DNA of 64,000 nt, from positions 434,001-498,000 of the forward strand of contig NZ_JACJRC010000001.1 in assembly GCF_014697025.1 (NCBI RefSeq). The letters are read 5' to 3'. The notes under the pieces were generated by a model. The model ran no database searches, was not told the DNA's origin, and worked only from the letters and a program-made list of their open reading frames with translations. The DNA is from Alkalinema sp. FACHB-956. Its GTDB lineage: Bacteria; Cyanobacteriota; Cyanobacteriia; Leptolyngbyales; Leptolyngbyaceae. This document shows positions 5,752 to 44,322 of this stretch, piece after piece (position 1 is the stretch's first letter; the number at the start of each line of letters is the position of its first letter). The position numbers and the translations under genes were made by a program.

Positions 5752-6405
5752 ATGCAAGCCCAGCCCAACGATCGCACCTTTGATTCTTTTGTCGATATCG
5801 TGGCCGAGCCAACCATTGAGCCCACCACTAAGTTTCACACGATTTTTGTGGACTGCATGGAGATGTATGCCGATGCAGCCATGGTCGCTCGCTATTTGGA
5901 TAATCATTCCGAGTGGTTTCGTCGCTGTGCCCAACCGATGAAGGCAGATCCGATCGGCAACACGGGCTATATCTTAACGATCGGGAATTATGGCGCTCTA
6001 GGGTACGAAATCGAACCTAAAATCGGTCTTGACCTGTTACCGCAACAAGAAAGTGTTTATCGGATTGAGACCATTCCTGTGCCTGGTTTTGTGGCTCCTG
6101 GTTACGATGTAGACTTTAGAGCCTCAATGGAATTGGTGGAACATGAGCCCACTGAAGAGGATGGACTAGATAACGGGGCAAAAATAACCCGTGTGCAGTG
6201 GCATTTGGATCTGACGGTGCAGATTCAATTCCCCAAGTTTATCCAAGCTCTCCCCAAATCGCTGATTCAGGCTACGGGGGAACGCTTACTCGATCAAATC
6301 ATTCGCCAAGTGTCGCGCCGACTGACCCACAAAGTTCAGACGGATTTTCATAGCACCTACAATCTGACTATTCCTAAGACCCAACGACGCTGGTTTTTCC
6401 AATAG
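5752..6405 (+). CDS. DUF1997 family protein
   Basis: A 217-residue soluble protein matching the DUF1997 family shared by cyanobacteria and plastids. Its core, about residues 25-200, resembles a lipid-binding START/SRPBCC-like fold (alternating strands, a YLDNHSEWF helix, then PGFVAPGYDVDF). Function is unknown. There is no signal peptide or membrane segment. The ATG at 5752 is preceded by GGAAC. Its 3' end overlaps the convergent cytochrome gene by 32 bp (6374-6405), so the two transcripts overlap. Confidence 0.8.
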   Translation: MQAQPNDRTFDSFVDIVAEPTIEPTTKFHTIFVDCMEMYADAAMVARYLDNHSEWFRRCAQPMKADPIGNTGYILTIGNYGALGYEIEPKIGLDLLPQQESVYRIETIPVPGFVAPGYDVDFRASMELVEHEPTEEDGLDNGAKITRVQWHLDLTVQIQFPKFIQALPKSLIQATGERLLDQIIRQVSRRLTHKVQTDFHSTYNLTIPKTQRRWFFQ

Positions 6406-6892
6406 CATTCGGCTTTTCCTTGTCTTTTTCCCGTGGGCTAGCCATTTGCAGGGATTGCAGGTCGATCGAGCTATCTTTCCAATCCTGGGCTGCTTGACTA
6501 AGGACATAGCGCGCAACGGCTTCAATTTCCTCTAGGGTCAAATTATCGGAAAAGGCGGGCATGGCATTTTTGCCGTGGATAACCTGGTTTTTAATGGCCA
6601 CGATCGAATCCATTTCGTACTTTTGCAAAGTCTCGAGGTGGAGATTTTTTTCGGCCAAGATCACGTTATTGCCACCAATGTGACAGGCCGAGCAATTTGC
6701 ACTAAAAATTTTTTGTCCTAGGGAGGGTACTGGGGCAGAGGGGCTGGGGCTGACGGATGGCTTGGGGACTGGAGCAGGAGACATCAGCGCGGCGGAAGAG
6801 GGCAGTGGCCCCATCAGACTGAAACACCCCAGGGCAAACACGATCGTGATCAGTCTTTTCAACAGTCTCACAGCCTTTCTCCCACAACCCAA
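6374..6892 (-). CDS. petJ: Cytochrome c6-like protein with Pro/Ser linker and C-terminal tail
   Basis: A class I c-type cytochrome of the c6 group, the lumenal carrier from cytochrome b6f to photosystem I. Haem motif CSACH is at Cys67-Cys70-His71 and axial Met111 lies in KNAMPAF, exactly the c6 pattern. Residues 10-36 form a signal or membrane anchor. A Pro/Ser-rich stretch (about 38-57) precedes the haem domain, where normal mature c6 begins almost at once. After the usual end of c6 (near Trp138) there are 34 extra charged residues coded over the convergent DUF1997 gene. It is last in the psbV-psbV2-petE-petJ series. It could be a normal c6 with odd ends or a tethered paralogue. Confidence 0.85.
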   Translation of the reverse strand: MGCGRKAVRLLKRLITIVFALGCFSLMGPLPSSAALMSPAPVPKPSVSPSPSAPVPSLGQKIFSANCSACHIGGNNVILAEKNLHLETLQKYEMDSIVAIKNQVIHGKNAMPAFSDNLTLEEIEAVARYVLSQAAQDWKDSSIDLQSLQMASPREKDKEKPNAIGKTSVVGS

Positions 6893-41289: not shown

Positions 41290-42438
41290 TCACCTTGAAA
41301 TCGATCGATACAGCGTATCCCGTTGCTGGGCAGGCCGATCGAGGCTGGCGATCGCTTGGGTTAAGGTCTCCACGGTTTGGCAAGTGCCCCCGATCGCACC
41401 TGCCATGGTGGTGATATGTTCCTCCATCAATGTGCCCCCGATGTCATTGCAGCCCCAAGTCAGCGCAGCGATCGCGCCCGGTAAACCCAATTTGACCCAA
41501 CTGGGTTGGTGGTTGGGAATCCAGTTGCCGAGGTAAATGCGGGCGACGGCAGTTAACTGTAACGAGGCGGCTAAATCCGGTTGATCCCGTCCGACTCGAC
41601 TGCGCAACGGTTTGGGGGCTTCTTGGCCGACAAAGGGCAGCAAAATAAATTCCGTAATGCCGCGATCGCCGCGATGCTGGGCTTTTTGTTGCAGTTGCCG
41701 GAGTTGTTCTAGGTGCGCAATTTGTTGGGCCGGGGTTTCGATATGCCCCGACAGCATTGTGCTGGTGGTGGGCATCCCTAAGGTATGGGCTGTGTGAATA
41801 ATTTCAACCCAAGTGGCTGCATTAATTTTCTCTGGACAAATGACGCGCCTCACGGTGTCATCCAGGACTTCCGCTGCCGTTCCGGGCATGGAATCGACCC
41901 CCGCTGCCTGCAATGCCGCAATCACCTCGCCGTAGGTTAGGCCATCCTGCCGCGCAATAAATTGAATTTCTTGGGGAGAAAAGGCATGGAGATGCAAATG
42001 GGGAAAGGCGGATTTAATCGTAGCGACTAATTTTAGGTAATAGGGTAAGGCCCGATCGTCAATTTTGGCCTGGGGATTGAGGCCCCCTTGCATACAAATT
42101 TCCGTTGCGCCTTGCTGCACCGCTTCGGTCGCCTTGGCCAAAATGGTGTCCCAATCTAACCAATAGGCTCCCGATTCCTCCGCATCGCGCCGAAACGCGC
42201 AAAAGCTGCAATGCTGTTCGCAAATGTTGGTGTAGTTAATATTGCGATTGACCACGTAGGTGACGGTGTCGCCGATTTGCTGTTGGCGAAGGCGATCGGC
42301 GGTTTCACGAATGGCCTCTAGTGCTGTGGGACTGGTTTGACGCAGCAGGTACAAGCCTTCCTCTGGCGATAAATCATGCCCTGCTAAGGCATGGTTCAAC
42401 AGGGTATCCAAGGATAACTGACTGGTTTCTAAATACAT
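41290..42438 (-). CDS. cofH: F0 synthase subunit CofH (radical SAM)
   Basis: One of the two subunits that make 7,8-didemethyl-8-hydroxy-5-deazariboflavin (F0) from tyrosine and a pyrimidine. In cyanobacteria F0 serves mainly as the antenna of deazaflavin-type DNA photolyase. The [4Fe-4S]/SAM motif Cys73-x3-Cys77-x2-Cys80 lies in [22 protein letters not shown] and HAFSPQEI follow as in CofH. It is 382 residues long. The CofG partner and photolyase are not in this window. Confidence 0.95.
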
Positions 42439-42619: not shown

Positions 42620-43480
42620 TTAAGGGCTACTCAGTAGGCTCAGCAACCGATCGGCATCTTCCAAGTCTCCAACAATTCGTCGCATGGGTAAAGGACTCAC
42701 CCGCACCAAGGTGGGCATCGCAGTCACTTGATCGAGTTCTGCTTGTTCTGGGTTCTTGGAAATATCGATCATTTTGAGTGTGTAGGGTTGATCGATACAT
42801 TGTTCCAGCAAGGTATGGAGATTTTGCAAGATGCGTTGGACATTGCCACTACGGCTGGAGAGATAGAGATGGAAGACGTAGGTGGGGGAGGGAGTTGGGT
42901 GGGGAATGGGGGAATGGGGGAGTGGGAGAGTGGGGAGTGGGAGAGTGGAGGAGTGGGGGTGTGGGGTGTGGGGGTGTGGGGTGTGGGGTGTGGGAGAGTG
43001 GGAGGGTGAGAAGGGGGCAGGAATGATGGGGTGGGATGGCTCGATCGGGGATGGACGATCGGTGTCGTCTAGGCGAATGACCCAGTCATGGCATTCCCAC
43101 AGGACTGGAAATTGTTGGCGGTAGGTGGATAGTAATCGGGGGGTACAGAGTTCTGGGGTTGTTTGTACGGTTTGCCACTGCTGCGGTTCGAGGCCAAATA
43201 ACGCTTCTAACAAGACACGGTAACGAATCACACCCGGAGCGGCGGTCGCTAAAGTGTTGACTTTTCCAGTGTGAGCGTCCTGCCAGCGATCGACCGTTGC
43301 GGTATAGCAAGGCAAGAGAAAATGAGGCGGTTCTGAGAGTCCCAGCCAATCCTGCAAGGCTGCACAGAGATGGAGGTGCCAACGGGACTGCTTGTTTGCG
43401 TCAATACAATAAACTAAATCTCCGCCTGGAGTAAAAAGAGCAATGCCCTTGAAGGTCTTGGGAACGGAGAGGTGTTCCAT
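42620..43480 (-). CDS. KaiB-fold domain fused to a cyanobacterial N-terminal domain
   Basis: 286 residues in three parts. Residues 1-140 are a soluble domain I do not recognise (starts GIALFTPGGDLVYCIDANK). Residues about 148-198 are a Pro/His/Ser/Thr low-complexity linker coded by a G-rich repeat tract. Residues about 200-286 match the thioredoxin-like KaiB/SasA-N fold: YVFHLYLSSRSGNVQRIL, then LKMIDISKNPEQAELDQVTAMPTLVRVSPLP, with the VDISK-type and cis-Pro PTLV motifs seen in SasA. No kinase part is present, so this is not SasA. A link to the circadian clock is possible but unproven. It is followed by a FetB-like permease gene on the opposite side of a 77-bp gap (next minus-strand gene upstream is cofH's neighbour, downstream order cofH). 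Confidence 0.82.
   Translation of the reverse strand: MEHLSVPKTFKGIALFTPGGDLVYCIDANKQSRWHLHLCAALQDWLGLSEPPHFLLPCYTATVDRWQDAHTGKVNTLATAAPGVIRYRVLLEALFGLEPQQWQTVQTTPELCTPRLLSTYRQQFPVLWECHDWVIRLDDTDRPSPIEPSHPIIPAPFSPSHSPTPHTPHPHTPHPHSSTLPLPTLPLPHSPIPHPTPSPTYVFHLYLSSRSGNVQRILQNLHTLLEQCIDQPYTLKMIDISKNPEQAELDQVTAMPTLVRVSPLPMRRIVGDLEDADRLLSLLSSP
42885..43020. repeat. G-rich low-complexity tract (minus-strand coding linker)
   Basis: About 135 bp of G3-G5 runs spaced by GT, A or AGTG on the plus strand. It is made of diverged GTGGGGTGTGGGG and GGGAGAGTGGGGAGT units. It is translated on the minus strand as Pro/His/Thr/Ser repeats. Confidence 0.85.
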
Positions 43481-43557: not shown

Positions 43558-44322
43558 TCACCAGCGGCGCAACTGGGCAGCCGGTGTAAAAAATTGTTGG
43601 GTGATGCCTGCCAGAAGACCCAGGAGGGTGATCAGTGTGGCAAGCAGGGTCATGAAGAGAATCAGGAGTTGATAGGCTCCAGCTTGCAGGGGATCGAAGC
43701 CAGCGAGTAAGGTGCCTCCCATAAAACTTGGCAGGATTGCCAGCCCCGCGATCGTCAGAGCGTTCAGGGTGGGCAACAGTCCGGCTCGAATCGCGGCTTG
43801 GCGGTAGGGGGCAATGGCGATCGTGGGGCTGGCTCCGAGGCTGAGGTGGGTTTCAATTTCCTGGGTGTTGTGGCTGAGGCTGTGGATGAACTGCTCTCCG
43901 GCGATCGCGGCTCCGTTCATGGCGTTGGCAAAGACCAGTCCCGACAGCGGTAGCAAAACGCGCGGCTCGTACCAAGGGGTGGACTGCACCACAAAGGTGA
44001 ACACATAGCCCAGGGTGACGCTACTGCCCAGGAAGAGTGAACCGAGGGTGATGGGCAAGAGGTAGGGGATCCGTTGGCTGAGTTGTTTTTGGGTGACGAT
44101 CGCGGCAACAAGCAGGAGCGCCAAGACCGCAATGAGGGTTAAAACCGGATCGCGCACGATAAAAATCGTTGCCAGAATATAACTAAATACGATCATTTGC
44201 AGGATCGATCGCCCCGCAGCCACCACCACACTCCCGAGCAGATCCAACCGTTGCCAAGCAGCGAGAATTAGGGTTAGGACAATTAACCCCAGCGCAAAGA
44301 TCAACTGTGTAGGCGTATCCAC
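43558..44322 (-). CDS. FetB/UPF0014-family ABC transporter permease
   Basis: A 254-residue permease with about six to seven membrane helices. It matches the UPF0014 family, whose E. coli member FetB exports iron with the ATPase FetA. Family features are HLSLGASPTIAIAPYRQAAIRAGLLPTL (coupling region) and the LPSFMGGTLLAGFDPLQAGAYQLLI stretch near residues 190-225. The start is a GTG at 44322. No ATPase gene is adjacent, so the partner must be elsewhere. The VWA gene lies 59 bp upstream on the same strand. Confidence 0.88.
   Translation of the reverse strand: MDTPTQLIFALGLIVLTLILAAWQRLDLLGSVVVAAGRSILQMIVFSYILATIFIVRDPVLTLIAVLALLLVAAIVTQKQLSQRIPYLLPITLGSLFLGSSVTLGYVFTFVVQSTPWYEPRVLLPLSGLVFANAMNGAAIAGEQFIHSLSHNTQEIETHLSLGASPTIAIAPYRQAAIRAGLLPTLNALTIAGLAILPSFMGGTLLAGFDPLQAGAYQLLILFMTLLATLITLLGLLAGITQQFFTPAAQLRRW

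Follow-up and report, generated by a model that had tools for sequence, protein, structure and literature searches.

The gene at positions 42,620 to 43,480 of the window, which is a stretch of 64,000 nucleotides from the cyanobacterium Alkalinema sp. FACHB-956, encodes a KaiB-4-type protein, and in most relatives that carry such a gene it stands directly behind pilT2, which encodes a second ATPase of the PilT type in cyanobacterial type IV pili. Within the protein, the KaiB domain is predicted to rest in a fold-switched, thioredoxin-like shape, and the residues associated with the return of KaiB to its ground state are changed throughout the family. From the sequences, the models, and the gene order, the reading that we tentatively favor is that KaiB-4 could be a fold-locked KaiB adaptor that lets the state of KaiC influence the pilus motor, with putative binding to both KaiC and PilT2. 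The genomes and loci of our survey are cited below by G and L numbers, and, once the survey had been completed, counts were based on 78 intact genes, with the broken gene of G147 left out.

The open reading frame begins with ATG, lies on the reverse strand, and comprises 286 codons. Its N-terminal domain (N-domain) is 44 to 59% identical across 53 aligned relatives, with 19 invariant positions over 54 sequences, the window's included; because of this conservation, the frame is not a chance one. Pfam places KaiB (PF07689) at residues 205 to 283 (E value of 1e-22; 80 bits, against a curated cut-off of 27). The KaiB domain is C terminal, and the Pfam and NCBIfam searches agree with the original prediction that no kinase follows it. 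A low-complexity linker of about 60 residues joins the two domains; a 17-mer from the repeat that codes for it occurs, with up to one mismatch, at three places in the genome, all of them within the array at 42899 to 43008. The protein is 286 amino acids (aa) long, and the 78 intact members measure 231 to 290 aa (median, 252). The features of the locus are as follows:

42620..43480, reverse strand: kaiB4-type gene (elongated KaiB), an open reading frame with a Pfam match
43061..43480, reverse strand: N-terminal domain, residues 1 to 140, conserved in Cyanobacteriia, of no known family
42881..43060, reverse strand: linker, residues 141 to 200, rich in Pro, His, Ser, and Thr, with low model confidence
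42899..43008, no strand: short tandem repeat of period 8/15, in frame, coding for much of the linker
42629..42880, reverse strand: KaiB domain, residues 201 to 284, predicted to be fold-switched (thioredoxin-like)
42737..42751, reverse strand: PEQAE motif, residues 244 to 248, in the second helix of the modeled KaiB domain
41290..42438, reverse strand: cofH (FO synthase subunit 2), downstream neighbor
43558..44322, reverse strand: UPF0014/FetB-like permease, upstream neighbor, standing where most relatives have pilT2

This architecture has already been described. Passages of Schmelling 2017 (PMC5520375) present an “elongated KaiB” of about 250 aa, the N-terminal extension of which (about 150 aa) is conserved only among cyanobacteria and has no recognized domain. 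Passages of Wayment-Steele 2023 (PMC10808063) give the name KaiB-4 to the KaiB domain of elongated KaiB and report that the isolated Thermosynechococcus domain (8UBH, KaiB-TV-4) is a monomer, stably fold-switched by nuclear magnetic resonance. The best Protein Data Bank (PDB) match of the window protein is that same structure, 8ubh, and an N-terminal extension together with a KaiB domain is present in the window protein and in 78/78 intact members; the architecture being known, the window therefore adds one further member of elongated KaiB. It shares with the published proteins an extension of about 150 aa without known homology and a KaiB domain at the C terminus that closely resembles KaiB1, and it differs from them in its long, repeat-coded linker and in that pilT2 does not adjoin the gene. 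The same genome also carries a kaiA-kaiB1-kaiC cluster and SasA. Its fourth, weak match to the KaiB profile (21.8 bits; L004 1393 to 1710, G000:C17) looks like a plain thioredoxin, with the motif WCGPC.

The original prediction saw a SasA-N/KaiB pattern in the C-terminal 85 residues. The NCBIfam model for KaiB (NF006798) scored 68.7 bits, whereas the “histidine kinase” model NF006800/PRK09303, which we take to be SasA, scored 24.8 bits, far below its cut-off of 342; for that reason, the label of a SasA-like sensor without its kinase was rejected. Furthermore, averaged over all 78 intact members, the window's among them, the KaiB domain is 41% identical to the KaiB1 of the window's genome and 29% identical to that genome's SasA. 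By sequence, then, the window protein resembles KaiB more than SasA. The equivalog cut-offs for circadian KaiB1 were not reached (TIGR02654, 67.5 versus 145.3 bits; NF006798, 110 bits required), and a quick tree, single and subsampled, grouped 16 short KaiB sequences with a support of 0.99 and KaiB-4 as one clade with only 0.14. A redox enzyme was also considered and rejected, since the single cysteine of the KaiB domain (residue 228) leaves it without a cysteine pair.

To model the protein, we used AlphaFold2 with the family alignment of 54 sequences (mean pLDDT of 83, pTM of 0.56, with low values in the linker). Residues 201 to 283 take the order β-α-β-α-β-β-α of fold-switched KaiB, and the top Foldseek matches were 5jwr_B, the fold-switched KaiB in a complex with KaiC-CI and KaiA (TM score of 0.81 by target, 1.9 Å), and 8ubh (0.80). 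The fold-switched KaiB of Legionella (4kun) also reached 0.80, and the N-terminal domain of SasA ranked 11th, with 0.67. The KaiB/thioredoxin fold proposed at the outset is thus borne out, the model giving no sign of a non-KaiB fold, and the window's KaiB domain is predicted to stand by default in the fold-switched shape. In this it would differ from KaiB1, which is in the ground state by default according to passages of PMC10808063.

Three residues of KaiB, K57, G88, and D90, are suggested as regulators of fold switching in passages of PMC5520375. In all 78 intact members, K57 is replaced by Q, H, R, or N and G88 by M, L, I, T, F, or V; the place of D90 is an alignment gap in 78/78, and in an ungapped reading it is D in one member and, in the others, most often G, A, S, T, or N (S in the window). 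The alignment thus gives good support to the view that KaiB-4 has changes at the residues linked with the refolding of KaiB to its ground state. KaiB1, at about 100 aa, has all three of these residues and lacks the N-domain; its tail after the G88 place is 25 residues long, against 2 to 15 (median, 5) in the 78 KaiB-4 sequences. What the two have in common, besides PF07689 and the mean identity given above, is the motif of the α2 helix.

That helix contacts KaiC, according to passages of PMC6769508, and its motif is kept in the intact members: P51 and E55 are each present in 77 of the 78, and A54 in 75. The charged lateral contacts, which in the same passages make KaiB assemble cooperatively on KaiC and which SasA also mostly lacks, are kept only in part (R23 is R or K in 52 members, K26 is K in 16, E84 is D or E in 54, and D91, the D90 place, is D in 1), and KaiB-4 can therefore not simply replace KaiB, which counts against the adaptor reading. 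We infer from the alignment and the model that KaiB-4 would have a KaiC-ready shape by default and would bind KaiC in a manner more like that of SasA than like that of the KaiB ring. Its likeness to the N-terminal domain of SasA thus lies in the thioredoxin-like fold and the mostly absent ring contacts; it differs in having no kinase, in the C-terminal position of the KaiB domain, and in the lower mean identity.

The domain of about 140 residues in front of the KaiB domain, which the original prediction had called unrecognized and cyanobacterial, has kept that status while proving to be conserved in all 54 aligned sequences. Modeled alone, it gave a pLDDT of 89 and a pTM of 0.84. Pfam searches of the 54 members returned only scattered matches in this domain (best E value of 0.019, PapD-like, in 6/54 members), a profile search of the N-domain against the PDB returned nothing credible (best E value of 0.021, stathmin), and the whole protein had no relative in PHROGs. 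Weak structural matches were to ADF-H/gelsolin-like folds (best Foldseek E value of 0.015; best VIA Z score of 4.6, with a root mean square deviation of 3.1 over 82 aligned residues), a resemblance too weak to claim. Neither a longin nor a roadblock fold, suspected from the strand order, was among the best 50 matches listed by Foldseek or VIA, where an absence proves nothing, and neither is claimed. The N-domain has no clear match to solved folds.

The gene's surroundings in other genomes offer a pointer to function. pilT2 lies upstream of kaiB4 on the same strand at 69 of the 78 intact loci, immediately adjacent in 67 and one open reading frame away in 2, and of the 20 families with kaiB4, 19 show the linkage; PilT2 is nevertheless a separate protein. 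The gap between the two genes is at most 100 bp in 41 of the 69 cases and 3 to 9 bp in seven, values that depend on the start codons chosen. The next most frequent neighbor families occur at 36/78 and 28/78 loci. The former is a short conserved protein (L040 10380 to 10751) and the latter a putative UDP-GlcNAc 2-epimerase (L039 5171 to 6325), presumably that enzyme by its motif; both are found upstream of pilT2 and on the opposite strand. A second set of named loci, the best 80 of 436 matching stretches and partly overlapping with the first set, shows the ATPase at 64/80 loci upstream of kaiB4 in the same orientation (distance of at most 663 bp, score of at least 477 bits); among the other 16, four end near a contig end and one has the ATPase on the opposite strand. 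The linkage, which is not visible in the window itself, suggests the likeliest way to the “unknown activity” that the original prediction tied to the clock.

The linked ATPase that we scanned matches TIGR01420 with 440 bits (cut-off, 319), and the five that we viewed all have a proline-rich N terminus, that of L068 being the least so. Passages of two reviews (PMC12288463 and PMC4390875) define PilT2 as a PilT homolog by its proline-rich N terminus. By sequence features, the linked ATPase fits this published description of PilT2, a type IV pilus ATPase; the pilT2 locus tag in Nostoc punctiforme is Npun_F2507. In the open-license PubMed Central (PMC) literature, “elongated KaiB” appeared in PMC5520375 and PMC10808063, no paper was found with both pilT2 and KaiB, and none of the papers naming pilT, KaiB, and “cyanobacteri” deals with the kaiB4-pilT2 pair, as judged from titles, beginnings of abstracts, and passages. 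Searching the same literature by locus tag added nothing on KaiB-4. We therefore did not find the gene context of kaiB4 in print, within open-license PMC, and this context is what the present analysis adds.

Taken with the degraded contacts of the cooperative KaiB ring, the pilT2 linkage could also mean that KaiB-4 no longer works through KaiC and is a partner of PilT2 (a chaperone, scaffold, or regulator), its stable thioredoxin-like KaiB domain serving as a protein-binding module. The Legionella protein with the matching fold is an analogy in favor of this, being non-circadian according to passages of PMC10808063. Such a role would not account for a KaiC-facing α2 motif that is nearly invariant, and kaiC accompanies the gene in nearly all carriers (as it does in non-carriers of the class); we consider this explanation distinctly unlikely.

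The survey covered 292 genomes of the phylum, 139 in the window's class and 153 outside it. The N-domain was found in 79/292 genomes, comprising 79/139 in the class and 0/153 outside; because a profile search of the same genomes with the N-domain returned 79 carriers as well, equal to the single-sequence search, no divergent extra carriers came to light. KaiC exceeded its curated cut-off in 78/79 carriers and in 60/60 non-carriers of the class. The lone carrier below it, G039, has weaker matches (best E value of 2.6e-46). Carriers are thus not genomes without kaiC, as they might have been had the link to KaiC in the original prediction been wrong; since every class non-carrier also has KaiC, however, this co-occurrence cannot discriminate. 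KaiA matches, some of them broken copies, were found in 77/79 carriers versus 44/60 non-carriers (Fisher P = 4e-5, ignoring shared ancestry), and PilT2 in 74/79 versus 41/60 (Fisher P = 1.7e-4, again ignoring shared ancestry). PilT2 was scored as present at 380 bits or more, with the addition of a fragment in G227 (337 bits) and, the match list being capped, with weak genomes judged by the E value of the genome row; the carrier tables for all three proteins were compiled by hand. Two genomes, Mastigocoleus testarum BC008 and the metagenome-assembled genome (MAG) PMM_0008, have two kaiB4 loci each (L124/L125 and L134/L142), either duplicates or assembly effects. At L130 4755 to 5485, in a low-coverage MAG, the two domains of kaiB4 are split by a frameshift that is probably an assembly error.

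The enrichment of KaiA among carriers would also suit a role within the clock itself. Here KaiB-4 would be a competitor of KaiB1 and SasA for binding to KaiC and would tune the phase or period of the Kai oscillator, the N-domain would act in sensing or localization, and pairing with pilT2 would reflect co-expression, not contact. The predicted fold-switched domain speaks for such modulation, as does the persistence of KaiB-4 in genomes without PilT2. Passages of PMC4431719 add that in Cyanothece 51142 the gene bearing the name kaiB4 (cce_0145) rises by day with kaiC1 and kaiB1; comparison of the cce_0145 primers with the kaiB4 loci examined gave two matches only, for one primer, with 4 mismatches, and its identity with elongated KaiB is putative. 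Modulation of the oscillator leaves the pilT2 linkage across 19/20 families unexplained, and at least 41 non-carriers have KaiC along with KaiA and PilT2 matches and do without KaiB-4. On balance, we regard it as somewhat unlikely.

The pairing has exceptions. Nine of the 78 intact loci, the window's among them, are without pilT2 linkage. PilT2 is present but unlinked in five genomes (the window's, G185, G289, G191, and G286), and intact KaiB-4 occurs without PilT2, at the cut-off used, in four (G051, G233, G183, and G268). These five and these four, together with the 41/60 class non-carriers that have PilT2 alone, count against an adaptor between KaiC and PilT2. G147 (L080) lacks PilT2, and its kaiB4 is broken; it belongs with G183 and G268 to genus g46, and these three genomes of about 3 Mb have no PilT2 match at an E value of 1e-60, with kaiB4 broken in one and intact in two. 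At L208 (G197, about 6340 to 6765), a remnant that retains the KaiB domain and the last part of the N-domain lies behind pilT2, as if the N-domain were being lost; that mainly the KaiB domain remains beside pilT2 also counts against the adaptor, as does an N-domain without a recognized fold. Apart from L208, none of the 20 inspected pilT2 loci without an adjacent kaiB4 had an N-domain or kaiB4 remnant directly downstream.

In the window, in two other genomes of its family, and at 7/80 named loci, cofH directly follows kaiB4. This gene of F420/FO biosynthesis was seen behind kaiB4 at L037, L038, L121, L122, L130, L150, L175, L192, and L193. Two named loci, in Leptolyngbya sp. FACHB-36 and Stenomitos rutilans, have the order pilT2-kaiB4-cofH; because relatives show this order, the window's locus is most simply read as its rearranged descendant, from which pilT2 has split off. 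That cofH, a cofactor gene, is also a kept neighbor in some lineages, and that the partners are unlinked or missing in several, would be expected if the pair were merely an old operon retained for co-expression, with KaiB-4 and PilT2 functioning separately. However, the pair outlasts other neighbors widely (69 versus 36 of 78 loci), and ordinary cyanobacterial gene order is not as stable as this, so an operon of that kind seems very unlikely to us.

In the adaptor that we tentatively prefer, a KaiB domain held in the fold-switched form that binds KaiC would be tethered by the flexible linker to the cyanobacterial N-domain. The KaiB domain would dock on the CI ring of KaiC once the sites for KaiB and SasA are exposed, needing no slow refolding and probably forming no cooperative ring like that of ordinary KaiB, while the N-domain would bind PilT2 or the pilus base. 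By such contact, KaiC's phosphorylation state might set pilus retraction, which would be a non-transcriptional clock output. In the window's lineage, where kaiB4 would have moved away from pilT2, both proteins would act in trans. The fuller version, in which KaiB-4 serves the clock directly as an output arm that bypasses transcription, and in which its N-domain passes the state of KaiC to PilT2 and so times pilus retraction, phototaxis, or filament gliding daily, is in our estimation unlikely.

We know of no KaiB-4 in Synechococcus elongatus, where the clock can thus reach pili by another route. Some background nonetheless makes a clock-pilus link plausible: natural competence in that species, which needs a type IV pilus, is clock controlled according to passages of PMC7125226, and a 2024 title cited in PMC12288463 announces clock-regulated oscillation of its type IV pili. 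The effect of PilT2 on pili is itself weakly established, a further point against the adaptor, because pilT2 mutants reportedly remain piliated and transform with normal efficiency and the reviewers doubt the negative phototaxis seen in the Synechocystis mutant (passages of PMC12288463); the N. punctiforme mutant has slightly fewer pili (passages of PMC4390875). In the same passages of both pilus reviews, the role of PilT2 is unsettled.

The authors of PMC10808063 close, in the passage concerned, by asking what the KaiB-4 copy does. The conserved pairing merges two open questions, the role of KaiB-4 and the role of PilT2, into one testable hypothesis; with the linkage so strongly conserved, a specific function of KaiB-4 can therefore be put to the test. 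If KaiB-4 does bind both KaiC and the pilus motor, clock output would pass by protein contact instead of by RpaA-driven transcription. The pairing with pilT2 thus points to a connection, one open to testing, between cell movement and the day-night clock.
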